Both the position numbers and the translations under genes were made by a program. DNA of 41,508 bases. Source: Microbacteriaceae bacterium PS02332. Lineage in GTDB: Bacteria > Actinomycetota > Actinomycetes > Actinomycetales > Microbacteriaceae. Shown here piece after piece: positions 7,325 to 32,575 of this stretch; positions within the stretch are counted from its first letter, which is position 1, and each line of letters opens with the position of its first letter. The stretch covers positions 1 to 41,508 of the forward strand of contig JASCOJ010000008.1 in assembly GCA_029959645.1 (NCBI GenBank), written 5' to 3'. The notes under the pieces are model-generated. The model had not been told where the DNA came from. It was given only the letters and a program-made list of their open reading frames with translations, and made no database searches.

Positions 7325-7351
7325 GTCACGTCGGTCACGGCGGATGGAGCG

Positions 7352-8314: not shown

Positions 8315-8358
8315 GGGTGGTTCCAGTCGACGAGGGCGTGTACGGAGGAAAGGCCCGG

Positions 8359-9663
8359 TCAGGACATGTTCGGCGGCGGGGCGCTGACCGAGGATCGGCT
8401 CGGCACTGTCCGGAGCGGGCGGGTCGCCGGGCCGAAGGTCTCGAGCAGTTCGAGCTCGTCGTTGACCACGGTGGCGAGGCGCTTGATGCCGACGCGGATC
8501 TGCTCCGGCGTCGGGTAGCAGAACGAGAGGCGGATGTTGCCGGCGCCCCGGCCGTTGGCGAAGAACGCGGTCCCCGGCGTGTAGGCGACGAGCTCCTTGA
8601 CCGCTCGCGGCAGCATGCCCTTCGAGTCGAGGGACTCCGGCAGGGTGACCCAGACGAAGAACCCGCCGTTCGGGACGGTCCACTGCAGGTCGGGGAGGAA
8701 CTCCCCCAGGGCAGACAGCATCGCGTCGCGGCGCTCGGCGTACAGACCCCGGAAGGTGTCGATCTGGCCGCGCCAGTCGGCAGCGTCGAGGTAGGCGTTG
8801 ACGACGTACTGGCCGAACGAGTTCGGCGCGAGGACGGCGGACTCGTTCGCGAGCACGAGCTTCTCGCGGATTGCGTGCGGGGCGAGGGCCCAGCCGACCC
8901 GGAAGCCCGGCGCGAGGGTCTTCGAGAACGACCCGAGGTACACGACGCCCTCGTCGTCGATCGAGCGGATCGCCTGCGGGGCCGGCTCGTCGAACCAGAG
9001 CAGCCCGTACGGGTTGTCCTCGAGCACGAGGATGCCGTTCGAGCGGCAGATGTCGAGCACCTCGATGCGGCGCTCGCGGCTCATCGTGACACCGGCGGGG
9101 TTGTGGAAGTTCGGGATCGTGTAGAGGAACTTCATCCGCTTGCCCGCGGCACGGAGGTTCGCGATGGTCTCGCGGAGGGCCTCCGGGACGAGACCGTGCT
9201 CGTCGGTCGTCACGTGCACGGTCTCCGCCTGGTAGGAGCGGAACACGCCGATGGCGCCCACGTACGAGGGCGACTCCGCCAGGACGACGTCGCCCGGGTC
9301 GATGAACAGGCGCGTGACGAGGTCGAGGGCGTGCTGAGACCCCGTGGTGACCACGACGTCCTCCGCGCTCGCCCTGATGCCCTCCAGGCTCATCACGTCG
9401 ACGATGTGCTCGCGGAGGGACCGCAGGCCCTGTCCGCTGCCGTACTGCAACGCCATGGCGGCGTCCTCGCGCATGACGCGGTCGAGCGAGCCGGTGACGA
9501 GCTCACGCGGCAGTGCGGAGACGTACGGCATGCCGCCGGCGAGCGAGACCACCTCGGGCCGCGACGCGACGGCGAACAGGGCTCGAACCTCGGAGGCGCT
9601 CAGCCCGGCGGTGCGCTGGGCGTAGGAGTCGTACCAGGGGTCGAGGCTGTTGCCGTTCGTCAT
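8359..9663 (-). CDS. PLP-dependent aminotransferase, class I/II fold
   Basis: A 434-residue fold-type I aminotransferase resembling the aminotransferase domain of MocR proteins and 2-aminoadipate/aromatic aminotransferases. The PLP-binding lysine is K248 in GSFSKTLAPGFRVGW; the partners N188 (PNFHNPAG) and D216 (LVLEDNPYG) are present. The N-terminal GGMP motif at 43-46 is typical of the subgroup. There is no fused GntR domain. Start ATG at 9663 has a strong Shine-Dalgarno (GGAGGA). The substrate cannot be read from sequence; location before ddl suggests amino-acid supply for the wall, which is inference only. The C-terminal 25 residues (Pro/Ser/Arg) look disordered. Confidence 0.88.
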   Translation of the reverse strand: MTNGNSLDPWYDSYAQRTAGLSASEVRALFAVASRPEVVSLAGGMPYVSALPRELVTGSLDRVMREDAAMALQYGSGQGLRSLREHIVDVMSLEGIRASAEDVVVTTGSQHALDLVTRLFIDPGDVVLAESPSYVGAIGVFRSYQAETVHVTTDEHGLVPEALRETIANLRAAGKRMKFLYTIPNFHNPAGVTMSRERRIEVLDICRSNGILVLEDNPYGLLWFDEPAPQAIRSIDDEGVVYLGSFSKTLAPGFRVGWALAPHAIREKLVLANESAVLAPNSFGQYVVNAYLDAADWRGQIDTFRGLYAERRDAMLSALGEFLPDLQWTVPNGGFFVWVTLPESLDSKGMLPRAVKELVAYTPGTAFFANGRGAGNIRLSFCYPTPEQIRVGIKRLATVVNDELELLETFGPATRPLRTVPSRSSVSAPPPNMS

Positions 9664-18429: not shown

Positions 18430-18882
18430 ATGTCGAAGCTCATCCTCACCCACGAGGTCTCCGGCCTCGGTTCCGCCGGTGACGTCGTCGACGTCAAGAA
18501 CGGCTACGCCCGCAACTACCTGATCCCGCAGGGCTTCGCCGTGTCGTGGTCGAAGGGCGGCGAGAAGCAGATCGAGTCGATCCGTGCAGCTCGCGCCGCG
18601 CGGGAGCTCGCCACCATCGAAGAGGCGCAGGACCTCAAGATGAAGCTCGAGAACGCCACCATCCAGCTGTCGGTCAAGGCCGGCAAGGACGGTCGTCTCT
18701 TCGGCTCCGTGCGTCCGACGGACGTCGCGGACGCCGTCCAGGCGCAGGGCGTCGGCTCGCTCGACAAGCGCAAGGTCGAGGTCCCCGCGACCATCAAGAC
18801 CGTCGGTGACCACGAGGCCACCGTGCGTCTGCGCGAGGACATCGTCGCGACCATCTCGCTGAAGGTCGTCGCCGCGAAGTAG
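18430..18882 (+). CDS. rplI: 50S ribosomal protein L9
   Basis: A 150-residue L9 with the N-terminal RNA-binding domain ([33 protein letters not shown]), a central helix (about 41-75) and the C-terminal domain ([20 protein letters not shown]...). Shine-Dalgarno GGAGG is 9 bp before the ATG. It is the last gene of the ribosomal/ssb operon; a strong terminator follows 17 bp after the stop. In many actinobacteria dnaB comes next, but here a 12-kb secretion locus lies between. Confidence 0.97.
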
Positions 18883-18898
18883 CAGCACCAGTACCGCC

Positions 18899-18936
18899 GG
18901 AAGGGCGGGTCTCCCACTCGGGAGGCCCGCCCTTCC
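18899..18936 (+). terminator. Strong terminator after rplI
   Basis: An unbroken 17-bp stem (18899-18915 with 18920-18936, one G-T pair) closes on the 4-base loop ACTC. The outer arm is GGAAGGGCGGG/CCCGCCCTTCC. Only a weak T-rich stretch follows. It separates the ribosomal operon from the T7SS locus. Confidence 0.88.
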
Positions 18937-19121
18937 GTCGTTCCCGGGCGGGACGTCCGGACGGTGTCGGCAGGAAGGCGGACAGGGGTCCGTACCCGCC
19001 GGTACCGAGCGGCGAACTCCGGGTGAACAGCACTCGAACACCCCCGTTCGGGGGTCGGGTGCTCGATAGCGTTCTCGAGGCCTCGACGAACGGGGCCGCC
19101 CTCGATCAGAAGGAGTACGCC
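18937..19121 (+). promoter_or_regulatory. Promoter region of T7SS module 1
   Basis: The 185-bp leader holds a perfect inverted repeat ACCCCCG-TT-CGGGGGT at 19040-19055. A possible -10, TAGCGT (19067-19072), lies 11 bp after it and about 50 bp before the first WXG100-like gene. The repeat would overlap the -35 zone, so it could be an operator. The identity with module 2 starts only at 19111 (Shine-Dalgarno AGGAG), so the two promoters differ. Confidence 0.4.
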
Positions 19122-19415
19122 ATGCCGAACATGAACGTCACTTACGGTGAGATGCAGGATGCCGGCTCGCGCCTGGTGAACGGTGAGCAGGAGATCACGT
19201 CGAAGCTGCGGGAGTTGAAGGCGTTGGTCGACTCGCTGATCTCGGGTGGGTACGTGACGGATGCGTCGTCGAAGGCGTTCGGCAACGCGTACCAGGAGTT
19301 CAACGACGGTGCGACGAAGACGATCCACGCGTTGGACGACATGTCGACGTACCTGAACCGTGCGGCCGAGGCGCTGCAGCAGACGGACCAGGAGCTGGCG
19401 CGCGCGATCAGCTAG
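19122..19415 (+). CDS. WXG100-like T7SS protein, copy 1
   Basis: A 97-residue, cysteine-free, all-helical protein of the ESAT-6/WXG100 type. Two amphipathic helices flank a turn near the centre. The turn reads GGYVTDASSKAFGNAY, in which Tyr replaces the Trp of W-x-G, and the SKAFxxAY part fits the family. The Shine-Dalgarno AAGGAG is 7 bp upstream. WXG100 proteins are small partners or substrates exported by the EccC/EssC ATPase. The gene is identical to that at 21558. Leu is coded by TTG in three of nine cases, unlike the flanking CTC/CTG-rich genes. Confidence 0.82.
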   Translation: MPNMNVTYGEMQDAGSRLVNGEQEITSKLRELKALVDSLISGGYVTDASSKAFGNAYQEFNDGATKTIHALDDMSTYLNRAAEALQQTDQELARAIS

Positions 19416-19500
19416 TCGGACGGTGCTCGGGGGCTCGGCGGTGTCGGGTCCCCGGGTGCTGGTTCGTGGGTGTCCGTGTTCGTCTCTGATCGGGAGCGTC

Positions 19501-19815
19501 ATGTCTGACTTGATCATCACGAAGGCCGTCCTCGAGGACTCGGCGGCGAAGTTGCAGCACATCTCGGATGAGTTGGAGCACCAGAAGTCCGATGACCGTG
19601 CGTTGTCGGAGGTCTACGGGCAGCGGGATGTGCAGAAGGCGATGCATGACTTCTCGGGGGACTGGAAGATCCACCGCAACAAGATGAAGGGTGCGGTGAA
19701 GGACCTGGGCGAGAAGATGCGGAAGGCGTCGGAGAACTGGTCGGCGTTGGAGCAGGACCTGGCGGAGAAGTTGTCGACGGAGCACCATGATGCTGCTGCG
19801 GGGGGTGCTGCCTGA
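19501..19815 (+). CDS. Small helical T7SS partner protein, copy 1
   Basis: 104 residues, highly charged and predicted helical with one turn. A tryptophan-centred segment (FSGDWKIHRNKMKGAVKDLGEKM) matches the second-helix pattern of ESX partner proteins, and the late WSALEQDL resembles a degenerate YxxxD/E export motif. It is likely the heterodimer partner of the preceding WXG100-like protein or a chaperone for the large substrate; this is inference. ATG 19501 follows GGGAG. The stop overlaps the next ATG by one base (TGATG). Six of nine Leu codons are TTG. It is identical to the copy at 21937. Confidence 0.75.
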   Translation: MSDLIITKAVLEDSAAKLQHISDELEHQKSDDRALSEVYGQRDVQKAMHDFSGDWKIHRNKMKGAVKDLGEKMRKASENWSALEQDLAEKLSTEHHDAAAGGAA

Positions 19816-21230
19816 TGCCGGCGCGTGGTGGGGACTGGTCGTTGCTGGGTGAGGCCTCGGACCCGATCGTCGCGGACGTCCCGGTGGTCCACGACCTCGT
19901 GCACTACTACACGACCATCGCACAGGAGATCACCGCCGAAGCCGACGTCCTCCGCCGCATCGGTGACGGTGACGAGTCGCAGTTCAAGGGCGAGACCGCC
20001 GACGCGGTGCGGAAGAAGAGTGCACAGGTCGCCGCCTCCCTGCAGAAGATGTCGGGGCGCTACGACGCCATCCGGGACGCCCTCACCGGGTACCTGCCCG
20101 AGCTCGACCACGGTCTGGCGGAGTCGGACGCGGCACTCCGGGACGCCGAGGAGGCCAGCGCTGCCGGTGCGCGTGCCACGGCGATGCCGGACCCCGGGCA
20201 GGGCCGGGCGCAGGACGCGCCGCCCCTGACCGACGACGAACAGGGAGCGATCGCGGCGAAGCACCGTGCCGCCGACGACGCGCGCGCCGGTTCGGACGCG
20301 GCCGTCGCTCGGCTGCGGCGGGCGGTCGACGGGCTGGACGTCGCCGGCCGGGCCGCTGCAGCGACCATCCGGGCTGCGCGGGACGACGGGCTGCACGACA
20401 CCCTCGGCGACAAGATCAAGGCCTTCTTCTCGAAGCTGCTCAAGATCATCGTCAAGATCTTCACGTACATCGGCATCGCCCTCGCCGCCCTGGCGATCCT
20501 CATCCCGGGCGTCGGCGTGCTGACCTTCATGGCGGCCGTCGCCGCGTCGGTGACGCTCGTCGCCAACATCGCGCTCGCGGGCATGGGCGAGGGGTCGTGG
20601 CTCGATGTCATCACGTCGGCGGTCGGCCTCGTGCTCGTCGGTGCCGGGGCCGCGCTCACGAAGGCCGTGTCGGCGGTGAAGAGCACGGCGTTGAGCAAGA
20701 GCCTGCCCGGCTTCCAGAAGACGACCCGCGCGAAGCTCGACGAGCTGCAGGCCGCCCGGACCGAGAAGCTGTCGCAGTGGTCGTCGAAGGGCGCCGCCAG
20801 CGAGGTCGGGGAGGTCAACGCGAAGATCGCGAAGGTCCTCGACGCGCGTCTCGACGCGAAGTTCCGGAACACCATCGACGGCTTCAAGGAGAAGCCGAAC
20901 TGGTGGCACCCGAACAAGGCGCTGTGGGCCGAGGACAAGGCCAAGATCGCCGACGTGGTGAAGAAGGGCGACTGGCGGTGGGAACGCCTGCTCAGTGTCG
21001 ACCGGCACTCGGAGATGGCGAAGATGCAGAAGGAGATGTGGACGAAGTACGGCGTCGACATCACCACGACGCCCGGGTGGCACAAGGTCGCCTCGGGCGG
21101 TCGCGTCATCGCGAGTTGGGGCAACACGATCGTCTACGGCCAGGGGCTCAAGCCGACCGGGTTCGGGACCGACCAGGACCGCCTGCCGGGTTACAACGAC
21201 GCGGCGAAGACCCTGACGCACGGGTTCTGA
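19815..21230 (+). CDS. Putative T7SS substrate A (WXG-like leader, hydrophobic core, variable C-terminus)
   Basis: 471 residues. The N-terminus (about 1-110) is a helical T7SS leader beginning GGDWSLLGEASDP, with FKGETADAV in the place of W-x-G. Residues 110-190 are an Ala/Asp-rich coiled region. A conserved segment (192-258, GLHDTLGDKIKAFFSKLLK then a Gly/Ala/Ile-rich stretch) could enter a membrane. The C-terminus (about 335-471) is Trp-rich, opens NWWHPNKALW and ends near GFGTDQDRLPGYND. I recognise no nuclease, ADP-ribosyl or other toxin motif. No immunity-type gene follows; the next 316 bp are noncoding. The first 61 residues are identical to substrate B. Confidence 0.72.
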   Translation: MPARGGDWSLLGEASDPIVADVPVVHDLVHYYTTIAQEITAEADVLRRIGDGDESQFKGETADAVRKKSAQVAASLQKMSGRYDAIRDALTGYLPELDHGLAESDAALRDAEEASAAGARATAMPDPGQGRAQDAPPLTDDEQGAIAAKHRAADDARAGSDAAVARLRRAVDGLDVAGRAAAATIRAARDDGLHDTLGDKIKAFFSKLLKIIVKIFTYIGIALAALAILIPGVGVLTFMAAVAASVTLVANIALAGMGEGSWLDVITSAVGLVLVGAGAALTKAVSAVKSTALSKSLPGFQKTTRAKLDELQAARTEKLSQWSSKGAASEVGEVNAKIAKVLDARLDAKFRNTIDGFKEKPNWWHPNKALWAEDKAKIADVVKKGDWRWERLLSVDRHSEMAKMQKEMWTKYGVDITTTPGWHKVASGGRVIASWGNTIVYGQGLKPTGFGTDQDRLPGYNDAAKTLTHGF

Positions 21231-21546
21231 CGTCCGTCATCCGGTGGACACGGCGCCCGTACCGGGGGACAGATCGTCCGCTCGCAGCCCGGGCGACACG
21301 CCGTACCGCGGGTCTTTCTGTGCCGGGGTGCGCTGAAATACCGTCCGGTGGGCGGGTTCCGAGGAGCCGGACCCCGCGCGCCGTTCGGACCGGAATACTG
21401 GAATCTGCACAGGCATGTGCAGGGCATGACCGGCCTGACCGGGGAAAACGTACCCCGCGAGATCGTTCCGACCCGGAATAACCTCTCGTTTGTCCCTCAA
21501 ATGGGGGCGGGTCCGACATGACCGGTCGGTACCCCGGACGAACGAC
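21231..21546. promoter_or_regulatory. Intergenic region before T7SS module 2
   Basis: The 316 bp hold no gene. A hairpin at 21352-21377 (GCGGGTTCCG/CGGACCCCGC, 9 of 10 pairs) could terminate module 1. A perfect inverted repeat CTGCACA-GGCA-TGTGCAG (21405-21422) could be an operator. The last 150 bp are richer in A/T than the surroundings, as expected for a promoter. It shows no obvious similarity to the leader of module 1. Confidence 0.5.
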
Positions 21547-21557
21547 AGGAGTACGCC

Positions 21558-21851
21558 ATGCCGAACATGAACGTCACTTACGGTGAGATGCAGGATGCCG
21601 GCTCGCGCCTGGTGAACGGTGAGCAGGAGATCACGTCGAAGCTGCGGGAGTTGAAGGCGTTGGTCGACTCGCTGATCTCGGGTGGGTACGTGACGGATGC
21701 GTCGTCGAAGGCGTTCGGCAACGCGTACCAGGAGTTCAACGACGGTGCGACGAAGACGATCCACGCGTTGGACGACATGTCGACGTACCTGAACCGTGCG
21801 GCCGAGGCGCTGCAGCAGACGGACCAGGAGCTGGCGCGCGCGATCAGCTAG
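21558..21851 (+). CDS. WXG100-like T7SS protein, copy 2
   Basis: Protein and DNA are identical to the gene at 19122: 97 residues, GGYVTDASSKAF turn, same Shine-Dalgarno. It is the first gene of module 2. Two identical copies would raise the dose of this partner or pair each substrate with its own locally made copy. Confidence 0.82.
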   Translation: MPNMNVTYGEMQDAGSRLVNGEQEITSKLRELKALVDSLISGGYVTDASSKAFGNAYQEFNDGATKTIHALDDMSTYLNRAAEALQQTDQELARAIS

Positions 21852-21936
21852 TCGGACGGTGCTCGGGGGCTCGGCGGTGTCGGGTCCCCGGGTGCTGGTT
21901 CGTGGGTGTCCGTGTTCGTCTCTGATCGGGAGCGTC

Positions 21937-22251
21937 ATGTCTGACTTGATCATCACGAAGGCCGTCCTCGAGGACTCGGCGGCGAAGTTGCAGCACATCT
22001 CGGATGAGTTGGAGCACCAGAAGTCCGATGACCGTGCGTTGTCGGAGGTCTACGGGCAGCGGGATGTGCAGAAGGCGATGCATGACTTCTCGGGGGACTG
22101 GAAGATCCACCGCAACAAGATGAAGGGTGCGGTGAAGGACCTGGGCGAGAAGATGCGGAAGGCGTCGGAGAACTGGTCGGCGTTGGAGCAGGACCTGGCG
22201 GAGAAGTTGTCGACGGAGCACCATGATGCTGCTGCGGGGGGTGCTGCCTGA
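21937..22251 (+). CDS. Small helical T7SS partner protein, copy 2
   Basis: Identical to the 104-residue protein at 19501, with the same spacing to its neighbours and the same one-base TGATG overlap with the next gene. That overlap, kept in both modules, implies coupled translation with the large substrate. Confidence 0.75.
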   Translation: MSDLIITKAVLEDSAAKLQHISDELEHQKSDDRALSEVYGQRDVQKAMHDFSGDWKIHRNKMKGAVKDLGEKMRKASENWSALEQDLAEKLSTEHHDAAAGGAA

Positions 22252-23900
22252 TGCCGGCGCGTGGTGGGGACTGGTCGTTGCTGGGTGAGGCCTCGGACCC
22301 GATCGTCGCGGACGTCCCGGTGGTCCACGACCTCGTGCACTACTACACGACCATCGCACAGGAGATCACCGCCGAAGCCGACGTCCTCCGCCGCATCGGT
22401 GACGGTGACGAGTCGCAGTTCAAGGGCGAGACCGCGAACGCCGTCCGCAAGAAGAGCAAGGAGGTCGCGGCCTCCCTGCAGAAGATGTCCGGCCGGTACA
22501 ACGCGATCCGCGATGCCCTCACGGGCTACCTGCCCGACCTCGAGGGCGCGCTCGAGGAGTCGGCTGCCGCGCTGCGCGACGCCGAGGACGCCGCTGCCGC
22601 AGGGTCCCGGGCGGACGCGATGAGCGACCCGACGCAGGGACGCGCGCCCGACGCACCACCCGTCACCGCCGACGAGGAGAGCGCCGCAGCGGCGAAGCAC
22701 CGGGCCACCGACGACGCGAAGAGCGCGGCGGGAGCGGCCACGGCACGTCTCCGCCGTGCGGTCGACGCCCTGAACGCCGCGGGCAAGCGCACCGCGGGGG
22801 TGATCCGCGCGGGCTGGAAGGACGGGCTGCACGACACCCTCGGCGACAAGATCAAGGCCTTCTTCTCGAAGCTGCTCAAGATCCTCGTCAAGATCTTCAC
22901 GTTCATCGGCATCGCCCTCGCCGCGCTGGCGTTCATCATCCCCGGCGTCGGCGTGCTGGCGATCATGGGCGCGGTGGCCGCGGGCGTCGGCCTGGTCGCG
23001 CAGATCGGTCTGGTCGCGATGGGCGAGGGCAACATCCTCGACCTCGTGATGGCCGTCGTCGGTGTCGCGACGCTCGGCATCGGCTCGGGCATCGGCAAGG
23101 CGACGTCGCTCGCGGTGAAGTCCGGGATCACGGCCTCCAAGGCGTCGATGACCGCGAAGCTCGCCGAACGCCTCGCGCCGCTGCAGCGCCTGCAGACGCA
23201 GTCGATGACGAAGATCAACGCGTTCCGCGCGGAGATCACCGGGTCCACCCGCACCATCGCGCAGGTGGACGACGACATGTCCGCACTGACCCGTACCGCG
23301 ATCGCCCAGGTGGGTGAGCGCGGGATCGGCAGCGCGCAGAGCATCTCGGCGCGCCTCCGTCAGGAGCTCACGCCGCTCGTCGAGCACAAGGGCATCGCCC
23401 AGGGCGGCCGTGACGCCGCGGCTACCGGGATCACCCGCGAGGAGGGGATCGGCCGGTACGCCGACCACCTCATCACGTCGGAGATGAAGTCCGTCGACCG
23501 GTCGCTCGCCGCCTTCGCCGAGAAGTTCAAGGACAACCCGAACTGGTGGAACCTCCGGGCGTTCCCGACGGTGGCGAAGAACGACTGGAGCACCATCTCG
23601 AAACAGTTCGGTTCCGAGCTGTTCACCAAGAAGGGGTTCGATGGCTGGCTGGAACGCTTCGCGGGCATCGACGGGCAGCTGAACCGGGCGAACATGGACA
23701 AGTGGCTCGCGGACGGCGGGTTCGGTGCGATCGGTTCGGCCGCGCCGCGGTCGCACACCATCGTGAACGGCGGCCTGAGCGCCTGGGGCAAGTCCTGGTC
23801 GGTGGCCGGCCTGGTGATCAACCCGGTCGGCGTCGGCGCGGACCAGTCGCGGCCGTGGACCGAGCAGTGGAACCAGGACAAGGGACCCATCACCGTCTGA
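22251..23900 (+). CDS. Putative T7SS substrate B (WXG-like leader, hydrophobic core, variable C-terminus)
   Basis: 549 residues, paralogue of substrate A. Residues 1-61 are identical in DNA and protein. Residues 62-260 are clearly related (GLHDTLGDKIKAFFSKLLKI and the hydrophobic IGIALAALAFIIPGVGVL occur at the same positions). The rest differs: an extra helical region (about 290-400, LAERLAPLQRLQTQSMTKINAF...), then NPNWWNLRAF and a C-terminus ending VGVGADQSRPWTEQWNQD. The NWW start and the G-x-DQ-x-R end recur in both paralogues, so the C-termini probably share a distant fold. No known toxin motif is seen. Accessory genes follow 28 bp later. Confidence 0.72.
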   Translation: MPARGGDWSLLGEASDPIVADVPVVHDLVHYYTTIAQEITAEADVLRRIGDGDESQFKGETANAVRKKSKEVAASLQKMSGRYNAIRDALTGYLPDLEGALEESAAALRDAEDAAAAGSRADAMSDPTQGRAPDAPPVTADEESAAAAKHRATDDAKSAAGAATARLRRAVDALNAAGKRTAGVIRAGWKDGLHDTLGDKIKAFFSKLLKILVKIFTFIGIALAALAFIIPGVGVLAIMGAVAAGVGLVAQIGLVAMGEGNILDLVMAVVGVATLGIGSGIGKATSLAVKSGITASKASMTAKLAERLAPLQRLQTQSMTKINAFRAEITGSTRTIAQVDDDMSALTRTAIAQVGERGIGSAQSISARLRQELTPLVEHKGIAQGGRDAAATGITREEGIGRYADHLITSEMKSVDRSLAAFAEKFKDNPNWWNLRAFPTVAKNDWSTISKQFGSELFTKKGFDGWLERFAGIDGQLNRANMDKWLADGGFGAIGSAAPRSHTIVNGGLSAWGKSWSVAGLVINPVGVGADQSRPWTEQWNQDKGPITV

Positions 23901-23928
23901 CCCGTGGGCCAGCACACGAGAGGACAGC

Positions 23929-24585
23929 ATGACCGGCATCCCCACGCTGGCGTCCCGCATCGACGTGGACGTCCCGGCCTGGATCGTCGTCCCCGGACCG
24001 GAGGAGGTGACGGCGGCGTGGCGCGCCGAGGTCCTCGCCCTCTTCGCGGCGGTGGACGAAGTCGACCGCTCCGCCGAGGACGCGGACCGGCTGTTCGCCG
24101 GCGGACCGCCGGTGGACCCGGAGGCGGCGCTCGAGACGCTCCTGGCGTTCCGCGCCGGACTCGAGCCGGAGGAACGACTCGTGGCGAGCCTCCTCGTGCC
24201 GAACCGCTGGCCGCTGCCGGTCGTCGTCACCGTCGGGCCGGTGGGCCCGGACGCCGCGGACCTGCTGCAGCTCGCCGGCGCCGACGGGGGCCTCCCGGTC
24301 GACCGCCCTGCCGTCGAGGAGCTGCCGGAGGACGTGCGCGGCGAGGGGCCCGTCGTCACCCGCTACGACCTCGACGACGAGGGGAGCCTCTGGGCGACCG
24401 TCTGCGCCGTCCGTCGTGAACGGGTCGGCGGCACCGAGGTGGACACCCGGGTACTCTGGCGGACCCGTGACCTCGACCTCGTGCCGGTCTTCGGCCCCGA
24501 GGTCGTCGACCTCGTCGGACGCGTCCACAACGAGGTCGAGTCGCCCGGGACCGTCGACATGACCGAGAACGAGGTCCTCGCATGA
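23929..24585 (+). CDS. T7SS-locus accessory protein 1, unknown function
   Basis: 218 residues, acidic, no signal peptide or membrane segment. It starts MTGIPTLASRIDVDVPAWIVVPGPEEV and contains a beta-rich middle (PLPVVVTVGPVGPDAADLLQLAGAD). I recognise no family. It follows substrate B by 28 bp with a GAGAGGA Shine-Dalgarno and overlaps the next gene at ATGA, so it belongs to the operon. A cytoplasmic chaperone-like role for the substrates is possible but not shown by sequence. Confidence 0.7.
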   Translation: MTGIPTLASRIDVDVPAWIVVPGPEEVTAAWRAEVLALFAAVDEVDRSAEDADRLFAGGPPVDPEAALETLLAFRAGLEPEERLVASLLVPNRWPLPVVVTVGPVGPDAADLLQLAGADGGLPVDRPAVEELPEDVRGEGPVVTRYDLDDEGSLWATVCAVRRERVGGTEVDTRVLWRTRDLDLVPVFGPEVVDLVGRVHNEVESPGTVDMTENEVLA

Positions 24586-25337
24586 CCGCACCCGTCGCCT
24601 CCTTCACTGTCGTCGTCCCCCCGGGCTGGGCACGGCTGCCCGCCCGTGAGGACGACCGTCGGGAACTCACCGCCGCGGTGCGTGCCGTGATCGCCCGGGC
24701 GCTCCCCGACGACCTGCCCCGCGACCGGGCGGAGCCCCTGCGCCAGGAGATGCGCAAGCGGCTCGTCGCGACGGTCGCGGAGGCCGGTGACAACGGCGCG
24801 ACGGCCGTCTACCTGCCCGTGCAGCCCGTCGACGGGTTCACGCCGCCGGTGTCGGTCATCGAGTCCGAGGTCGAGGACGAGTCGGAGGAGTCCCCCGCCG
24901 ACGTCATCGCCCAGCTCCTCGCCGACGCCGTCACCGACCGGCACGACACCGGGGAGTCCGACGCCGACGAGGACGCCACGGGCGAGGAGCACGAGCTCCC
25001 GCCGGGCGTCCGGGAGGTCGACGGGGGCATCGCGGCCCGCACCGAGACCGTCGTCCGCCGTGCCGACCCCGCGGCCGCGCTCCCGGGCATCGGCGACGAC
25101 CTGCCGGTGGTGGACGACCGTCAGGTCACCTACACGATCCCGGTGCCGCACCGCCCGGGCCGGTGGGTCGTCATGTCGTTCTCGGCGATCAGCGCGCCGG
25201 ACGCCGACCCCCGGCTCACCGAGGCCCTGGTCGGGTTGTTCGACGCGGTGATGACGACCTTCCGCTGGACGGACGTCCCCGGCGCCGAGCCGACCACGCT
25301 CGAGCGTCGGCTCGCGGAACTGCACGGCACCGCCTGA
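24582..25337 (+). CDS. T7SS-locus accessory protein 2, unknown function
   Basis: 251 residues. The N-terminus FTVVVPPGWARLPAREDD and the later TAVYLPVQPVDGF resemble small conserved proteins I recall next to ESX-type ATPase genes in other actinobacteria; I cannot name a family. A very acidic loop lies near 88-125 (ESEVEDESEESPAD...DEDATGEEHE). The C-terminal half is beta-rich (VTYTIPVPHRPGRWVVMSFSAI) and ends with a helix about where a surface-level protein might dimerise. No signal peptide. It is coupled to the previous gene by ATGA. Confidence 0.7.
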   Translation: MTAPVASFTVVVPPGWARLPAREDDRRELTAAVRAVIARALPDDLPRDRAEPLRQEMRKRLVATVAEAGDNGATAVYLPVQPVDGFTPPVSVIESEVEDESEESPADVIAQLLADAVTDRHDTGESDADEDATGEEHELPPGVREVDGGIAARTETVVRRADPAAALPGIGDDLPVVDDRQVTYTIPVPHRPGRWVVMSFSAISAPDADPRLTEALVGLFDAVMTTFRWTDVPGAEPTTLERRLAELHGTA

Positions 25338-25382
25338 CCCTCCCGGTCGCCCCTCCGACGTCCCCGAACCGGAAGCCCCACC

Positions 25383-26309
25383 ATGTCCTGGTCCTTCGTC
25401 CACCCCGTCTCGCACCTCGTCCTGTCGGCCGCCGCGCTGCTCTTCCTCGCCACCCTCGCGTTCGTGGTGCCGACGATCGTCACCCTGCGCCGCCGCACCA
25501 CGACCGAGGCGATCGCGTGGGCCGACGTCCCGCAGCGCGAGGCCGGGGCGGCCTGGGCCACCGACCGGGTGCTCCGCAGCGTCGAGGCGTCCTGCCACGA
25601 CGCCGGGGTCGGCTTCCCCGGCTTCGTCCGCGCCGTCGTCGGCACGACCGTCCGGCTCGACCTCGCCTCGCCGACGGTCGCGCCGCCGGCCCCGTGGACG
25701 ACCACGCCGGACGGCCGATCGTGGTCGGCGCCGATGTGGGCGCTCCAGGCGGTCCCGTTGACGACGGCCGCGAGCACCGACTTCGCGACGGTCGTCGGCC
25801 TGGGCGGCGACGCGGACGGTGCCGTCCTCGTCGACCTGCGCCGGGTCGGCGGGTTCGTCGCGCTCGGCGGCGACACGACGGCGCGCGGCGCAGTGGCGCG
25901 TCGGGTCGTCGACCAGGTGCGCACCGACCCCTGGTCGGTCGGGACGACCGTCCTCACGGTCGGCGTCGGCGACGTCGTCTCCGGGGGACCGACGACGTCC
26001 GTCTCCGTCGCCGAGGCGCTGGCGGCGGTCTCGGCGGACGCGACCCCGGGCCTCCTGGTCGTCCGCGACGTGCCGGGCGGTGCCGACGGGCGTGAGCTGG
26101 CCCGGTTGCTCGAACGACCCGGTGGACGCTGGGCCGCGGTCGCGCTGCGGCCGTCGGCGCTGGCGCGGTGGACCCTCGACTGCCGACGTGACGGCACGCT
26201 CGTCTCCGACGAGCTCGGCACCGTCCGCTGGATGGACCTCGCCCTGTCCACGCCCTCCGCGGTGCCGACGGACGCCGTCGAGCCCGCCGTCGAGCGGGCG
26301 GACGCCTGA
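25383..26309 (+). CDS. T7SS-locus membrane-anchored protein, unknown function
   Basis: 308 residues. One N-terminal membrane segment (about 8-32, VSHLVLSAAALLFLATLAFVVPTIV) is followed by RRRTT, so the remaining 270 residues are probably cytoplasmic. This part has alternating beta strands (VLVDLRRVGGFVALGGDTTARGAVARRVV, TVLTVGVGD, PGLLVVRDVPGG), an alpha/beta layout that resembles a P-loop fold without an intact Walker A. It could dock on the adjacent ATPase; that is inference. The stop overlaps the ATPase ATG by one base, implying coupled synthesis. Confidence 0.7.
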   Translation: MSWSFVHPVSHLVLSAAALLFLATLAFVVPTIVTLRRRTTTEAIAWADVPQREAGAAWATDRVLRSVEASCHDAGVGFPGFVRAVVGTTVRLDLASPTVAPPAPWTTTPDGRSWSAPMWALQAVPLTTAASTDFATVVGLGGDADGAVLVDLRRVGGFVALGGDTTARGAVARRVVDQVRTDPWSVGTTVLTVGVGDVVSGGPTTSVSVAEALAAVSADATPGLLVVRDVPGGADGRELARLLERPGGRWAAVALRPSALARWTLDCRRDGTLVSDELGTVRWMDLALSTPSAVPTDAVEPAVERADA

Positions 26310-29300
26310 TGCGCGTCGTCGTCACCGTCGTCGACGACGTCACGGGGGACCGGACGGACGTCCTCATCGACGCCGCGGCCGCGACCCCGATGCGGACCGT
26401 CGTCGACGCGCTCACCCGGCGTACCGGGGGATCGGCCCTGCCCGCGGACGCCGCCGACGGCGACGTCCCGTTCGCGCGCAGCGGCCTCGTCGACGGGGCC
26501 GTCCTCCACATCGGCGCACAGCCCGACGCCGGCGCGACGACCGGGCTCGTCGACCTGCTCGTGGCCAGCGGGGTCGGCAGCGGCCGGTCCGTCCGCCTCG
26601 GCGCCGGGCACCTCCGGATCGCGGTCGGTCCGGACGGCGACACCCGGACCGGAGCCGAGGCGGGCGACACCGCCGGCCTGGAGGCCCGGATCGCCCTGGA
26701 CGGGCAGGTCGAGGTCCGTCTCGCCCCCGTCGGGGAGCCGGACGCGGACGCCGCGCCGGGCTCCGGCAGTGACGGACCGGTGACCGCGACGCTCGACGAC
26801 ACCACGCTGACCGAGCCGTGGGTCCCGTGGTCGCCGGGCGGTGCCCTCCGCGTCGCGGAGGTCGTCCTCACGGTGCAGCCGGTCGCGGTCGTGGACCGCA
26901 TGCTGCTCCGTCCGCCGGACTCCGGGCAGCTCGACTTCAACCGGCCGCCACGGCTGCTGCCGCCCCTGCTCACCACGGCGTTCCGGATCCCCAAGCAGCC
27001 GGTGCCGCCGCAGCGGTCGGCGCTGCCGTGGATCATGGTGTTCGTGCCGGCCATGTTCGGCGTCGTGATGGCCACGGTCTTCCGGTCGCCGTTCTACCTC
27101 CTCTTCGCCGCGATGACGCCGATCATGGTGATCGGCCAGTCGGTCACGGCCCGCCGGACCGGCAAGAAGAGCCACCGCCGTGCGCTCGCGGAGCACGCCG
27201 AGCGGGTCGCCGCCATCGAGGAGGCCGTGGACGGGGCGGTCCTGGCGGAACGCGACCAGCGGCGGGACGACGGCCTGGACGCGGCCGCACTCCGGATCGC
27301 GGCGACGACGCCGACGCGGCGGCTCTGGGAACGGCGGCCGACCGACGCCGACCACCTGCAGCTCCGGGTGGGCGTCGGCGACCTGCCGTCCACGGTGACC
27401 GTCGCCGACGACCGTGACCTCGACGGACTGCACCAGGAACCGCGGTGGACCCGCGGAGTGCCGGTGACGGTGCCGCTCGGCGAGGTCGGGGTGCTCGGCG
27501 TCGCCGGACCCGGTGCCTGGCCGCGGACCATCGGCCGGTGGCTGCTCGGGCAGCTGGCGGTCACGCAGAGCCCCCGCGAGGTGCAGTTCGTCGTCCTCAC
27601 CTCCCAACCGGCGATGTCGGCGTGGGCCTGGACGACGTGGCTCCCCCACGTGCGGCCGGCCAGCGGACAGGACGCGCTCGCCCTCATCGGTGCGGACGCG
27701 GAGACAATCGGTCGGCGCCTGGCGGAGCTGACGCAGATCTTGGCCGAACGGCGGGCCGAACGCGAGAAGAACGCGATGGCACGGCGGCGCTTCTCGCCGG
27801 ACATCGTGGTCGTGCTCGACGGTGCCCGACGGCTCCGGGCCATGCCGGGCGTGGTCGGGCTCCTCCGCGACGGCCCCGCCTGCGGCATCCGTCTCATCTG
27901 CATCGACGAGGAGGAGTGGCAGCTGCCCGAGGAGTGCGCGGCCACCGTGCTGCACCGCTCCCCCACGCAGCTCGTCGTCCGACGGCAGCTCGAGGCGCCG
28001 GTGGACGCGGTGCTCGCCGACCTGGTGGACGACGACTGGTTCGACGTCGTCGCGCGTGCGCTCTCCCCGCTGCGGGACACCTCGGGTTCCGACGGGCAGG
28101 GACTCGTCCCGGACAGCGCGCGGCTCCTCGACGTCCTCGACCTGCCGCAGCCGACCGGTGCGGGCATCGCAGCGCGCTGGAGCACGGGAGCGGCGACGAC
28201 GTCGGCCGTGGTCGGCATCGGCATCGACGGGGCGTTCGCCCTCGACCTCGTCCGGGACGGGCCGCACGGGCTCGTCGCGGGCACCACCGGCTCCGGCAAG
28301 TCGGAGTTCCTGCAGACGCTCGTGGCGTCCCTCGCGGTCGCCAACCGGCCCGACCAGATGACGTTCGTGCTCGTCGACTACAAGGGCGGCGCCGCGTTCA
28401 GCGTCGCGTCGGACCTGCCGCACACCGTCGGGCTCGTCACCGACCTCGACCAGCACCTCGTCGAGCGGGCACTGCGGTCCCTGCGCGCCGAGCTCACCCG
28501 TCGCGAGCACATCCTCGCCGCCTCCGGGGCGAAGGACATCGAGGACCACGAGGCGCACCTGGCCCGCGGCGGCGCGGGTGAGGCGATGCCCCGACTGGTC
28601 CTCGTCATCGACGAGTTCGCCGCGATGGTGACCGAGCTGCCCGACTTCGTCGCCGGGCTGATCGGCATCGCCCAGCGCGGTCGCTCCCTGGGCGTGCACC
28701 TCATCCTCGCCACGCAGCGCCCCGGTGGCGTCGTCGGGCCGGACATCCGGGCGAACACGAACCTCCGCGTCGCGCTGCGCATGACCGACCCGAGCGAGAG
28801 CTCGGACGTCATCGACGTCGGCGACGCGGCGCGCATCCCGAAGAGCGTGCCCGGTCGCGGGTACGCACGGCTCGGACACTCGTCGGTCGTGCCGTTCCAG
28901 TCGGCCCGGGTCGGTGGCCGGTGGGCGGGCGAGGAGGACCCCGCGGCGCTCCTGCCGTTCGTCCGAACGCTCGAGTGGCGGGACTTCGCGATGTCGCCGC
29001 CGGAGCGCCCGACGACCGCCGGGACCGGCTCGGCCGCCACCGACCTGTCGGTGCTCGTCGGGGCGCTCGGTGAGGCCCGGGACCGGCTCGGCATCGGTGC
29101 CCTGCACTCGCCGTGGCTGCCGCCCCTGCCGGAGCTCCTGCCGCTCACCGAGGTGGCGTCGGCGTCGATCGGCACGAGCGGTGCGGCGGCGGCCTCGTCC
29201 GCGGGCGCCCTCGCGTTCCCGTGGGCGGTCGAGGACCTCCCCGACACGCAGGCGCAGCGCGCGGCGAGCATCGACCTCGACCGCTTCGGCCACATGTACA

Positions 29301-30796
29301 TCGTCGGCGCGCCCGGATCGGGCCGCTCGCAGGCACTCCGGACCATCGCGGCCTCCGCGGCCGGTGCGCTGCACTCGACCGACGTGCACCTGTACGCGCT
29401 CGACTGCGGCAACGGCGCCCTGGCGTCGTTGCAGGCGCTCCCCCACTGCGGGGCCGTCGCCCAGCGCACCCAGGTGGAACGGGCCTCCAGGCTGGTCGAG
29501 CGGTTGACCCGCGAGATGGCGCGTCGCCACGACGTCATCGCCGCCGCCGGGGCCGCGAACATCACGGAGCAGCGGCTCGCCGCTGCCTCGCAGGACCGCC
29601 TGCCGCACGTGCTGTTCCTCATCGACCGGTGGGAGAACTTCGTGTCGTCCCTGGGCGAGGTCGACGGCGGGTCCCTCACCGACTCGGTGCAGTCGCTCCT
29701 CCGCGACGGGACCGCTGCGGGCATCCACGTCGTCATCTCCGGTGACCGCACGCTCCTGACGAGCCGCATGTCGACGATGACGGACGACAAGCTGATCATG
29801 CGCCTGACCGACCGGCTCGACTACTCGCTCGGCGGGATCAACCACCGCCAGCTGCCGGCGTCCATCCCGCCGGGCCGCGCGTTCCGTGCCGACGCCGGGA
29901 CCGAACTGCAGGTCGCGGTCCTCGGCACGGACGTGTCCGGCCAGGGGCAGACCGCGGCCGTGCAGGCACTCGCCCGGTCCGTCCGGGCCGACGAGGAACT
30001 CCTCGAGCTGCCGCGCATCCGGCCGTTCCGGGTGGACGCGCTGCCGAAGGACATCGACCTGGACGCCGTCCTCGAACTCGAGGGGGCGCCCGAGTTGCGG
30101 CCGATGCTCGCGGTGACCGGCATCGGCGGCGACGAGATGACGCTGCAGACCGTCGACCTGGCCACCGGCGGTGGCACGTTCGTCGTCGCCGGGCCCAGTC
30201 GCTCCGGTCGGTCCACCATGGTGGCCTCGATGGCGCGGTCGCTGCTCGCCGGCGGCACCGAGCTCGTGGTCCTCGCGCCGCGACAGGGGCCGGTGCGGGA
30301 CCTCGAGGGTCTCCCCGGTGTGCGGGGCATGCTGACCGGGGACGACGTGACCGAGGACGACGTGCGACCGCTGTTCGAACAGAGCGACTCCCCCGTGGTG
30401 CTCGTCGTGGACGACGGCGAGCTGCTCATCGACTGCTCGGCCAAGTCGTACCTGCGGGACGTCGTGCGCGGGTTGACGGACGACGGCCGCGGCATGGTGC
30501 TCGGCGGCAACACCACCGGGCTGGCCTCGGGCTTCGGCGGCTGGCAGGTGGACGCGAAGAAGAACCGTCGCGGTGCCCTCCTGTCGCCGCAGGACACCCT
30601 GGCCGGTGACCTCGTGGGCGCACGGATCGCCCGGAGTGCGATCTCGTCGCGGATCACGCCGGGGACGGCGCTCGTGCACCTCGGGACGGGGCTCACGGCG
30701 ACGCTCCAGGTGCCGATGGTCACCGCGGCGACCCGGACCGGGTCGGTCGTGACCCGCGCCGGGTCCGACGCGGCCCGGGCGTCCGTCGGGGTCTGA
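26309..30796 (+). CDS. EssC/EccC-type T7SS ATPase (FtsK/SpoIIIE family)
   Basis: 1495 residues. The N-terminus (1-75) is ubiquitin-like/FHA-associated (MRVVVTVVDD...GLVDGAVLHIG), followed by an FHA-like region to about 150. Two membrane segments lie at about 238-280. Three FtsK/SpoIIIE ATPase domains follow. The first has an intact Walker A GTTGSGKS (K664) and Walker B LVLVIDEFA (D768, E769). The second has GAPGSGRS, with R1006 in the lysine position, and LIDRWE for Walker B. The third has SRSGRS, with R1301. Only the first is likely a strong ATPase, as in EccC/EssC. This motor engages WXG100 substrates at the membrane. The architecture is nearer to EssC (single chain, FHA-like front) than to split EccCa/EccCb. 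Confidence 0.93.
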   Translation: MRVVVTVVDDVTGDRTDVLIDAAAATPMRTVVDALTRRTGGSALPADAADGDVPFARSGLVDGAVLHIGAQPDAGATTGLVDLLVASGVGSGRSVRLGAGHLRIAVGPDGDTRTGAEAGDTAGLEARIALDGQVEVRLAPVGEPDADAAPGSGSDGPVTATLDDTTLTEPWVPWSPGGALRVAEVVLTVQPVAVVDRMLLRPPDSGQLDFNRPPRLLPPLLTTAFRIPKQPVPPQRSALPWIMVFVPAMFGVVMATVFRSPFYLLFAAMTPIMVIGQSVTARRTGKKSHRRALAEHAERVAAIEEAVDGAVLAERDQRRDDGLDAAALRIAATTPTRRLWERRPTDADHLQLRVGVGDLPSTVTVADDRDLDGLHQEPRWTRGVPVTVPLGEVGVLGVAGPGAWPRTIGRWLLGQLAVTQSPREVQFVVLTSQPAMSAWAWTTWLPHVRPASGQDALALIGADAETIGRRLAELTQILAERRAEREKNAMARRRFSPDIVVVLDGARRLRAMPGVVGLLRDGPACGIRLICIDEEEWQLPEECAATVLHRSPTQLVVRRQLEAPVDAVLADLVDDDWFDVVARALSPLRDTSGSDGQGLVPDSARLLDVLDLPQPTGAGIAARWSTGAATTSAVVGIGIDGAFALDLVRDGPHGLVAGTTGSGKSEFLQTLVASLAVANRPDQMTFVLVDYKGGAAFSVASDLPHTVGLVTDLDQHLVERALRSLRAELTRREHILAASGAKDIEDHEAHLARGGAGEAMPRLVLVIDEFAAMVTELPDFVAGLIGIAQRGRSLGVHLILATQRPGGVVGPDIRANTNLRVALRMTDPSESSDVIDVGDAARIPKSVPGRGYARLGHSSVVPFQSARVGGRWAGEEDPAALLPFVRTLEWRDFAMSPPERPTTAGTGSAATDLSVLVGALGEARDRLGIGALHSPWLPPLPELLPLTEVASASIGTSGAAAASSAGALAFPWAVEDLPDTQAQRAASIDLDRFGHMYIVGAPGSGRSQALRTIAASAAGALHSTDVHLYALDCGNGALASLQALPHCGAVAQRTQVERASRLVERLTREMARRHDVIAAAGAANITEQRLAAASQDRLPHVLFLIDRWENFVSSLGEVDGGSLTDSVQSLLRDGTAAGIHVVISGDRTLLTSRMSTMTDDKLIMRLTDRLDYSLGGINHRQLPASIPPGRAFRADAGTELQVAVLGTDVSGQGQTAAVQALARSVRADEELLELPRIRPFRVDALPKDIDLDAVLELEGAPELRPMLAVTGIGGDEMTLQTVDLATGGGTFVVAGPSRSGRSTMVASMARSLLAGGTELVVLAPRQGPVRDLEGLPGVRGMLTGDDVTEDDVRPLFEQSDSPVVLVVDDGELLIDCSAKSYLRDVVRGLTDDGRGMVLGGNTTGLASGFGGWQVDAKKNRRGALLSPQDTLAGDLVGARIARSAISSRITPGTALVHLGTGLTATLQVPMVTAATRTGSVVTRAGSDAARASVGV

Positions 30797-30816
30797 CGGG
30801 ACTCGGGCGGTTACCG

Positions 30817-30863
30817 TCCGGGTGCGCTCGCGGTACCTGGGCGGGAGCCGTGAGCGCACCGGA
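30817..30863 (+). terminator. Hairpin after the T7SS ATPase gene
   Basis: TCCGGGTGCGCTC (30817-30829) and GAGCGCACCGGA (30852-30863) pair along 12 bp with one bulged G, around a 22-base loop. It lies 20 bp after the stop; a short T-rich stretch (gtttgtc) follows 12 bp later. A likely end for the T7SS transcript. Confidence 0.55.
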
Positions 30864-30940
30864 CCGGAGGCCCGTTTGTCAAGTCGGCGTGCACCGGTCC
30901 GGAGTCAAATCGGAACCTTCAACTGCTCGTTGAAGCCGAG

Positions 30941-31103
30941 TTGTGCACACACAGTGTGGAAACGAAAATCCCCGGTCAAGCGGTCGAACATGTGTTCTCC
31001 ACACCGGTTGTCCACACCACTCTCCACAACTGTCCACACGGACTTCCGGCGTGTTCCGCAATCTCTCCACAGAGTTGTCCACACCCCCGTTTGTTGTGGA
31101 TAA
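30941..31103. promoter_or_regulatory. DnaA-box cluster upstream of dnaB
   Basis: Within 163 bp there are two perfect TTGTCCACA boxes (31008-31016, 31075-31083) and a perfect TTATCCACA on the minus strand (31095-31103). Near matches are TTGTGCACA (30941), TTCTCCACA (30995), CTGTCCACA (31030), CTCTCCACA (31020 and 31063) and a minus-strand GTTTCCACA (30955-30963). Most point the same way. A 7-bp inverted repeat, CTTCAAC/GTTGAAG, lies just left at 30917-30935. The cluster is 107 bp before the dnaB GTG and is locally A/T-richer. Confidence 0.8.
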
Positions 31104-31210
31104 CCCTGTACCCGTAGCTTGGCCCAGCGACCAGGGGATGTCGGTCGCCCGGGGTAGAACTGGCGGAGCGGCGGTCCTGGCGTCGCACCGTCCGAGACTG
31201 AGGAGCACGT

Positions 31211-32575
31211 GTGTCGATCGCGCATCTGGAACCGGCCCCGCGGGAGTACGCGGAGCGGAACACCGATCGCACGCCGCCGCACGACATGCTGGCGGAGCAG
31301 TCCACCATCGGCGGCATGATGCTCTCGAAGGACGCCGTCGCCGACGTCATCGAGACCGCCCGCGGCGTGGACTTCTACATCCCCAAGCACGAGGTCATCT
31401 TCGACGCGATCCTGTCGCTGTACTCCCACGGTGAGCCGACCGACGTCATCGCGGTCACCGACGAGCTGACGAAGACGGGCCTCCTGTCCCGCGGTGGCGG
31501 CGCCGAGTACCTGCACAGCCTCACGAGCATGGTGCCCACCGCGGCGAACGCCGGGTACTACGCGGCCATCGTCGCCGAGAAGGCCGTGCTCCGCCGCCTG
31601 GTCGAGGCCGGCACCCGCATCGTCCAGATGGGCTACGCCAGCGAGGGTGAGGTCACCGACCTCGTCAACAGCGCCCAGGCCGAGGTCTACAACGTCGCCG
31701 GCGGCGTGCAGACCGAGGACTACGTGCCCCTGACCGAGGCGATCGGCACCGCCATCGACGAGATCGAGGCCGCCAAGGGCCGCGACGGGCAGATGACCGG
31801 CGTGCCGACGGGCTTCGCGCAGCTCGACGGCCTGACCAACGGGTTCCACCCCGGGCAGCTCATCATCGTCGCCGCGCGACCCGCCCTCGGCAAGTCGACC
31901 CTCGCGCTCGACCTGTGCCGGGCCGCCGCGCTCAAGCACAACCAGACCGCCGCGTTCTTCTCGCTCGAGATGGGGCGCGCCGAGATCGCCATGCGTCTGC
32001 TGTCCGCCGAGTCGAGCGTGCCGCTGCAGAACATGCGCAAGGGCACCGTCGACGCCCGCGACTGGACGACGATCGCGCAGACCCGGGGGCGCATCAACGA
32101 CGCCCCGTTCTTCATCGACGACTCCCCCAACATGACCCTCGTCGAGATCCGTGCCAAGTGCCGCCGACTCAAGCAGCAGCACAACCTCAAGCTCGTCGTC
32201 ATCGACTACCTGCAGCTCATGACCTCGGGCAAGCGGGTCGAGAGCCGCCAGCAGGAGGTCTCGGAGTTCTCGCGTGCGCTCAAGCTCATGGCCAAGGAGC
32301 TCCAGGTGCCGGTCATCGCGCTGTCGCAGCTGAACCGTGGGCCGGAGCAGCGTGCCGACAAGAAGCCGATGATCTCGGACCTGCGTGAGTCGGGGTCGAT
32401 CGAGCAGGACGCCGACATGGTGATCCTGCTGCACCGTGAGTCGGCGTACGAGAAGGACAACCCGCGGCAGGGGGAGGCGGACCTCATCGTGGCGAAGCAC
32501 CGTAACGGGCCGACGGACACCATCACCGTGGCGTTCCACGGGATGTTCTCTCGGTTCGTGGACATGCCGCAGTAG
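31211..32575 (+). CDS. dnaB: Replicative DNA helicase DnaB
   Basis: A 454-residue hexameric helicase that unwinds DNA at the replication fork. The N-terminal helical domain (PPHDMLAEQSTIGGMMLSKDAV...) contacts primase. The RecA-like C-terminal domain has Walker A ARPALGKST (K228) and Walker B LKLVVIDYLQLM, with LSQLNRGPEQR and DLRESGSIEQDAD downstream. There is no intein, unlike in many actinobacteria. GTG at 31211 is chosen for its GAGGAG Shine-Dalgarno (31200-31205). The DnaA-box cluster in front suggests control by DnaA. Confidence 0.97.
   Translation: MSIAHLEPAPREYAERNTDRTPPHDMLAEQSTIGGMMLSKDAVADVIETARGVDFYIPKHEVIFDAILSLYSHGEPTDVIAVTDELTKTGLLSRGGGAEYLHSLTSMVPTAANAGYYAAIVAEKAVLRRLVEAGTRIVQMGYASEGEVTDLVNSAQAEVYNVAGGVQTEDYVPLTEAIGTAIDEIEAAKGRDGQMTGVPTGFAQLDGLTNGFHPGQLIIVAARPALGKSTLALDLCRAAALKHNQTAAFFSLEMGRAEIAMRLLSAESSVPLQNMRKGTVDARDWTTIAQTRGRINDAPFFIDDSPNMTLVEIRAKCRRLKQQHNLKLVVIDYLQLMTSGKRVESRQQEVSEFSRALKLMAKELQVPVIALSQLNRGPEQRADKKPMISDLRESGSIEQDADMVILLHRESAYEKDNPRQGEADLIVAKHRNGPTDTITVAFHGMFSRFVDMPQ

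Follow-up and report, generated by a model that had tools for sequence, protein, structure and literature searches.

Evidence for recurrent copying of a WXG100 gene between two ancient tandem type VII secretion modules in Curtobacterium, with an 889-bp identical leader in strain PS02332

The stretch of DNA analysed (the window) comprises 41,508 nucleotides of Microbacteriaceae bacterium PS02332 (GenBank assembly GCA_029959645.1, contig JASCOJ010000008.1, positions 1 to 41,508, forward strand); the genome, a draft of 339 contigs, is called G000 below. It holds a putative type VII secretion system (T7SS) locus with two tandem modules, each consisting of a WXG100 gene, an EspC-like gene for a small helical partner and a long substrate gene; the modules are identical over 889 bp and differ densely on either side. 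Comparison with relatives makes it highly probable that the tandem modules are ancient, that recombination between them recurrently copies the WXG100 gene while partner and substrate follow their position, and that the last event in G000 was unusually long.

Positions 19111..19999 (copy 1) and 21547..22435 (copy 2), both on the forward strand, agreed at 889/889 bp in pairwise alignment and at no further base on either side, so that the identity and the abrupt divergence described in an earlier sequence-only reading of this stretch were confirmed. The 5' edge was the Shine-Dalgarno motif AGGAG, 11 bases before the WXG100 ATG, and the 3' edge lay within codon 62 of the substrate, at its second base (GCC vs GCG); that reading had likewise placed the tract from the Shine-Dalgarno into codon 61-62. 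Between these edges lay the WXG100 gene (19122..19415 in module 1, 21558..21851 in module 2), a non-coding spacer, the EspC-like gene (19501..19815 and 21937..22251) and the first 61 codons of the substrate gene (SUB1, 19815..21230, 471 aa; SUB2, 22251..23900, 549 aa), all on the forward strand. Identity was 34% in the ~150 bp upstream, 73% (alignment columns) in substrate codons 62-200 and 33% beyond codon 300; because the modules differ so densely just outside the tract, a chance match is excluded. A search of the genome DNA gave two full and three weak matches (36-160 bp), that is, no third full copy in G000. A repeat-finding scan returned only a 300-nt member of the 889-bp repeat, apparently owing to the limit of the scan's reference copy. 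By the alignment offsets, the substrates share a further 63 bp exactly within their hydrophobic stretch (20385..20447 in SUB1, equal to 22821-22883 in SUB2, forward strand); since conservation of this stretch in the genus goes by position, constraint is a likelier cause than recent conversion, and the within-genome excess of similarity there, in the all-nucleotide test, was small.

A WXG100 gene of this type was found in 21 of 67 genomes of the genus (best match at least 79% identical). Module number in relatives, which the sequence-only reading had proposed to compare, came out as follows: 15 carriers, G000 included, had two modules that look intact, three had one (G001, G021, G048) and three had contigs ending in the repeat (G024, G065, G066). 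The last three were left out of all module statistics, and the single-module genomes out of the within-genome statistics; the WXG100 analysis was limited to this locus type, matches of at most 50% identity at other loci in the genus being left out. G063 was left out of the EspC-like and spacer comparisons, its module-1 EspC-like gene being mostly deleted: only a short remnant lies there between WXG100 and substrate, as after an internal deletion, and it gave no EspC-like match.

At four-fold degenerate sites the WXG100 copies differed by 0.118 within genomes vs a between-genome value of 0.315 for module 1 and 0.306 for module 2. When module 2 was reassigned among genomes (5000 shuffles; P = 0.0002 is the floor), the shuffled pairing gave 0.306 vs the real 0.118 (P = 0.0002), and without G000 0.284 vs 0.127 (P = 0.0002). 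The nearest relative was the partner in the same genome for 21 of 30 WXG100 copies, for 2 of 28 EspC-like copies (both those of G000) and for 0 of 30 substrates. Of the secretion leader proposed to be kept constant, it is thus in relatives mainly the WXG100 coding sequence that is so kept; likewise, homogenisation within rather than between genomes applies mainly to the WXG100 gene, with a weak effect or none in the segments downstream.

Nearby genome pairs gave the same picture. In six of nine (one of them a tie) the WXG100 genes were at least as close within as between genomes in both members, and in eight of nine the substrates were farther apart within than between in both members, the exception being G052 in the pair G011/G052. 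For G050/G051 the WXG100 counts were 1/49 and 1/48 within vs 4/47 and 4/47 between, and the substrates showed the reverse (40/84 and 34/81 within vs 63/237 and 59/228 between). In the ten genomes where the edge could be read, exact matches began at -12 to +21 bases from the WXG100 start, and their 3' edge usually lay near the WXG100 stop; the match lengths for G052, G006, G060, G033 and G054 were not used, being an artefact of overlapping test windows. The matches begin there because the regions upstream of the two modules are barely alike (31-44% identical in 14 of 15 genomes, 19% in G063). The WXG100-to-EspC-like spacers were 33-54% identical in the 13 other comparable two-module genomes and 100% in G000; the usual 3' edge falls where spacers differ, so that recombination takes place wherever the sequences are alike enough to permit it. 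On these comparisons, concerted evolution of the WXG100 gene by gene conversion is well supported, and the gene conversion or repeated recombination put forward by the sequence-only reading is supported by the permutation, by the nearby pairs and by the pairs in other genera given below.

The substrates, in contrast to their young leader, form two old lines that follow position. In trees of codons 201-260 (support 0.995) and 301-end (0.82), all module-1 copies formed one split, which also took in the lone copies of G001 and G021, and in no tree of codons 62-200, 201-260 or 301-end did any of the 15 two-module genomes pair its own two substrates; in the tree of codons 1-61 the own substrates paired in G000 only. 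From the absence of pairing and the positional split it follows that the two modules predate the sampled species carrying them. The flanks of the tract keep separate histories in the permutation too, with no within-genome excess for substrate codons 62-110 or 261-end (P = 0.88 and 0.52, respectively); for codons 1-61 the all-nucleotide test gave an excess (P = 0.0008; 0.02 without G000). Grouping of each copy with its orthologue rather than with its tandem partner was found for the substrates and, outside G000, for the EspC-like genes; it was not found for most WXG100 copies. The C-termini following position (codons 201-260 and 301-end), the cassette-type polymorphic system that had been suggested is not supported for the modules in Curtobacterium; the one case of a homologous N-terminal domain carrying another cargo came from distant Streptantibioticus, in a 1517-aa protein (L103, 113-4666) whose N-terminal domain is followed by DUF6531 and RHS repeats. 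This Rhs protein implies, by homology, that the N-terminal domain may serve the delivery of other cargoes too.

Several results weigh against so simple a division between a homogenised WXG100 gene and everything downstream. Within-genome excess, weaker than for WXG100, was also seen at four-fold sites of substrate codons 111-200 (P = 0.002; 0.003 without G000) and of the EspC-like gene in its second half (P = 0.0006; without G000, 0.011), and in all nucleotides of codons 201-260 (P = 0.001; 0.002 without G000; four-fold sites, 0.17). Trees of codons 1-61 and 62-200 lacked a clean module-1 split. The WXG100 copies were not freshly alike in G033 (18/50), G006 (15/48) and G045 (14/49), the three genomes involved in the three of nine nearby pairs in which not both members showed the pattern, and the WXG100 tree joined the two copies of one genome as a cherry in no more than 6 of 15 cases.

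Searches of two overlapping sets of family genomes (299 and 398) were read for two WXG100 matches at most 5 kb apart on one contig. Outside Curtobacterium such tandem pairs occurred in five genomes of four genus groups, and all were near-identical; differences within the pair were 0/51 (G068), 0/50 (G213), 2/58 (G108), 5/54 (G141) and 2/56 (G367). G068 and G213 belong to one genus and form the only between-genome comparison outside Curtobacterium: 15/50 between genomes and 0 within, a textbook concerted pattern. In G141 and G367 the distance from one start to the next is just 475 and 406 bp, and because of this closeness of the copies a recent duplication is a possible explanation in these two.

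Most of the tract in G000 is atypical in composition, a feature absent from the sequence-only reading. A two-changepoint scan of silent sites delimited a G/T-rich segment at 19148..19853 in copy 1 (forward strand; log-likelihood ratio 23.1 vs a maximum of 12.1 in 60 shuffles) and 21584..22289 in copy 2 (forward strand; 29.6 vs a maximum of 10.0 in 60 shuffles); with the changepoints at 19853 and 22289, identity reaches 146 bp past the atypical segment on the right. When C content was scanned instead, the right edge stayed the same and the left edges moved upstream of the tract, to 18946 and 21243. Third-position skew of G over C was +0.28 in the WXG100 gene and +0.37 in the EspC-like gene of G000, the other Curtobacterium copies ranging from -0.27 to +0.10; TTG accounted for 9 of 18 Leu codons in the leader vs 4% in the other window genes counted; G/T content over WXG100, spacer and partner was 0.57 vs 0.42-0.46 in all 30 other copies compared. 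Silent-site ratios of G000 were 1.5-1.75 across WXG100, EspC-like gene and codons 1-61, and 0.96-1.16 in later substrate codons and orfA-orfC downstream. The ATPase of the locus was moderately farther from its relatives in amino acids (0.22 vs 0.153), the difference being spread along its length. In a comparison made for the donor copy, tract codons 21-61 resembled module 1 (mean difference 0.212) as well as module 2 (0.282), and the closest single copies were those of G032 (modules 2 and 1).

The leader of G000 was probably imported and then copied between the modules; since the composition of most of the tract departs from that of the remaining locus, the likely order would be entry into one module followed by copying into the other. 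The composition has counterparts elsewhere: the WXG100 genes of G068 and G213, of another genus, showed similar third-position skew (+0.23 and +0.21), and 72 of 3355 other 700-bp windows of the loci reached the G/T content of the leader, because of which import is not proven by composition alone. Nor was a donor found in the 67 genus genomes (best other DNA match 79%; viral and metagenome collections lay outside the search), in 299 family genomes, in a GTDB contig scan (best full-length match 84%) or among plasmids (best 83%, Curtobacterium sp. TC1).

The main alternative to import is lineage-specific mutation biased to one strand, spread by the usual conversion; it competes with the import step only, and is a serious possibility, if short of an even chance. 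The four-fold changes of the leader fit it, since almost every one of them turned C into G or T on one strand: against the consensus of WXG100, EspC-like gene and substrate codons 1-20, C had changed at 26 of 35 sites and G at 1 of 24. The bias is shared by the non-coding spacer, and the unsuccessful donor searches point the same way. The flanks on the same strand are nevertheless without it (SUB1 codons 62-200: C 8/22, G 8/18; contrast with the leader, Fisher P = 0.0006), and the WXG100 protein of G000 differs from the others by 17% of amino acids on average, compared with 2.6% among the others. Building on import, the leader (WXG100, EspC-like gene and first substrate helix) might tentatively be viewed as a transmissible address unit, a foreign version of which replaced the native one and was copied into every module, resetting the export address of both cargoes and leaving the cargoes untouched; we hold this bolder view to be rather unlikely.

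That the identity arose in assembly, a short-read assembler having put one repeat sequence into both copies of truly different leaders, is improbable. The main residual risk lies in the draft state of G000, which weakens the case for the 889-bp identity, and other drafts do break at the repeat (G024, G065, G066; G338 outside the genus); in G024 (L053, L088) contig ends carry 99-bp exact duplications and N inside the WXG100 region, which looks like an assembler artefact. Against this, no displaced third WXG100 copy was present in G000; the single-contig genomes G012, G045, G051, G032 and G063 also have two modules, with WXG100 genes differing at 1-16 of 294 bases; and collapse should not merge copies as unlike as the spacers of the relatives. 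Small differences hidden within the 889 bp of the draft are possible. Recent duplication of a whole module followed by cargo replacement would give a common leader with different cargoes, as seen in the two modules, yet the other two-module genomes carry an orthologue of each substrate at the matching position and the upstream regions of the modules differ too; it is very unlikely, and recent whole-module duplication and cassette swapping were both rejected on the positional substrate trees. Purifying selection or codon constraint without recombination, for which the high conservation of the WXG100 protein among the other species (2.6%) might speak, is scarcely credible and, taken alone, was rejected, because the four-fold difference of the gene is ~0.31 between genomes but 0.118 within and because the spacer, identical in G000, is so unlike in the 13 other genomes.

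The preferred explanation, ancient modules with recurrent copying of the WXG100 gene, would run as follows. Two tandem substrate modules would share one EccC/EssC-type ATPase, and gene conversion between them, presumably by the RecA pathway, would repeatedly copy the WXG100 gene; the WXG100 proteins of the two modules would then usually be identical or almost so, with partner and substrate keeping their own positional lines. In G000 the last event would have covered 889 bp, from the Shine-Dalgarno to just past the turn after the first long substrate helix. The WXG100 protein may be a common dimeric export factor whose copies are kept alike by the need to fit the single ATPase, and the EspC-like partner may follow the substrate because it has to fit its own; selection may thus add to recombination driven by identity. 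The roles proposed are those of known proteins. In S. intermedius the export of every LXG toxin depends on EsxA, a homodimer that shows no binding to these toxins and has to be compatible with EssC (PMC13355648); LXG toxins have cognate Lap partners (PMC9600955). With the WXG100 protein in the role of EsxA and the EspC-like protein in that of Lap, an assignment we infer by analogy, the first would be kept alike and the second would follow the substrate, as observed outside G000.

Recombination among T7SS paralogues in general is already known (PMC13061034, a preprint, and PMC9484751). The esx (WXG100) paralogues of Mycobacterium tuberculosis exchange tracts by gene conversion within one genome (PMC13061034), as the WXG100 genes would here; conversion is presented there as a driver of antigen diversity, whereas here the outcome is sameness of the tandem WXG100 genes, in most of the 15 Curtobacterium genomes and in the pairs from four other genus groups, with the linked substrates distinct. 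In Firmicutes, tandem T7SS paralogues esaG/tipC likewise recombine through shared blocks (PMC9484751), but those are immunity genes changing in copy number, and here an export factor is concerned, in G000 also the partner and the first substrate helix. LXG effectors with Lap1/Lap2 of T7SSb (PMC9600955) resemble the modules in that a long substrate, helical at its N-terminus, has small helical genes linked to it; in Curtobacterium, unlike there, one upstream gene is WXG100 by profile, no LXG family match was obtained and the substrates keep positional orthology in their C-termini. Among the closest known systems, PE/PPE pairs of mycobacteria were named as well. T7SSd of Actinomycetota (Olsenella, Bifidobacterium; PMC11217815) shares the few components and the EssC-like ATPase; here, in contrast, scans of the ATPase gave no FHA domain, no kinase was detected among the scanned proteins and orfA-orfC had no Pfam match. 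A literature search (titles and starts of abstracts; few subscription papers covered) gave no description of WXG100 homogenisation in tandem modules of Microbacteriaceae, nor of a compositionally distinct leader placed in both modules. If the WXG100 protein is the common factor and the partner private, recombination keeps the common factor alike, and neither the partner nor the substrate; this would offer a way to tell shared from dedicated export factors from sequence alone. Homogenisation of WXG100 also accounts for the contig breaks of several drafts at these genes.

The gene order of the locus is rplI, module 1, module 2, orfA, orfB, orfC, ATPase, dnaB, all on the forward strand. The two modules encode the same WXG100 protein (97 aa). 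It has no Trp and lacks the literal W-x-G, the likely turn being ISGG, so that the family name rests on the profile: Pfam WXG100 (PF06013) matched the module 2 copy at 1.4e-18 with 67.4 bits, above the curated cut-off of 27.3. The EspC-like gene had a weak Pfam EspC match (18.8 bits, below the cut-off of 23.5), scanned on copy 2, to which copy 1 is identical, in a stretch that started one codon before the ATG. The genes orfA (23929..24585), orfB (24582..25337) and orfC (25383..26309) are conserved in the island and had no Pfam match, orfC no NCBIfam match either. The EccC/EssC-type FtsK/SpoIIIE ATPase (26309..30796, 1495 aa) matched Pfam FtsK_SpoIIIE at 1e-64 and NCBIfam EssC, EccCa and EccCb with 552, 390 and 327 bits, all below the curated cut-offs. 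This ATPase and a WXG100 protein, the combination by which a T7SS was recognised, are thus both present at the locus; membrane components specific to T7SSa, T7SSb or T7SSd were not recognised among the scanned genes (orfA and orfB by Pfam only).

SUB1 had a weak WXG100 match at residues 26-91, below the cut-off, and an orthologue in position 1 of relatives; SUB2 has positional orthologues as well. The structure model of SUB2 was confident for about residues 1-190 (block means 64-96), with predicted long helices at 22-51, 60-122 and 140-193, and the identity tract ends just past the turn between the first two; 325 of 549 residues scored below 50, and no fold was therefore assigned to the C-terminus. 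In a structure comparison of the SUB2 N-terminus BAR domains led the list, and PPE chains were among the rows of lowest rmsd, the BAR scores being equal or higher; for this modelled region the likeness to BAR domains is read as that of generic long helices. Search of solved structures with SUB1 alone gave nothing at E 1, and profiles gave designed helical proteins and weak rows; no toxin family match was obtained for the scanned locus proteins in Pfam, NCBIfam and solved-structure searches.

On the left the locus is flanked by rplI (ribosomal protein bL9, 18430..18882; named from sequence and gene order; 89-99% identical in the relatives with T7SS whose region was fetched) and on the right by the replicative helicase gene dnaB (31211..32575; NCBIfam DnaB 523.7 bits, cut-off 385.25). 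The distance between them is 12.3 kb in the window (18882-31211), 10 kb in G001 and ~530-1000 bp in G008, G018, G026, G028, G038, G039 and G041, which had no WXG100 match, and in the chromosome of G048; because the gap is short in these eight chromosomes without the locus there, the T7SS locus is regarded as an island. A further unit in G000 (C282:6000-20000, reverse strand; reverse-complement 5988-9303) carries matches to the EspC-like gene (41%), to the substrate in its N-terminal part (42%) and to orfB (33%), and no WXG100 or ATPase match was found within the 14 kb examined; a unit of this kind without WXG100 fits an export factor usable in trans. In Curtobacterium sp. TC1 (G048) the single-module island lies not in the chromosome but on the 164-kb plasmid pTCL (NZ_CP081962.1, 14001-22832). 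The genome paper of this strain reported a WXG100 gene and identified no T7SS genes (PMC8830320); the annotated FtsK/SpoIIIE ATPase of pTCL aligned with that of the window along its whole length. A recombinase gene adjoins the ATPase gene, and the plasmid is typed as non-mobilizable; a copy on a plasmid is a conceivable route for leader import.

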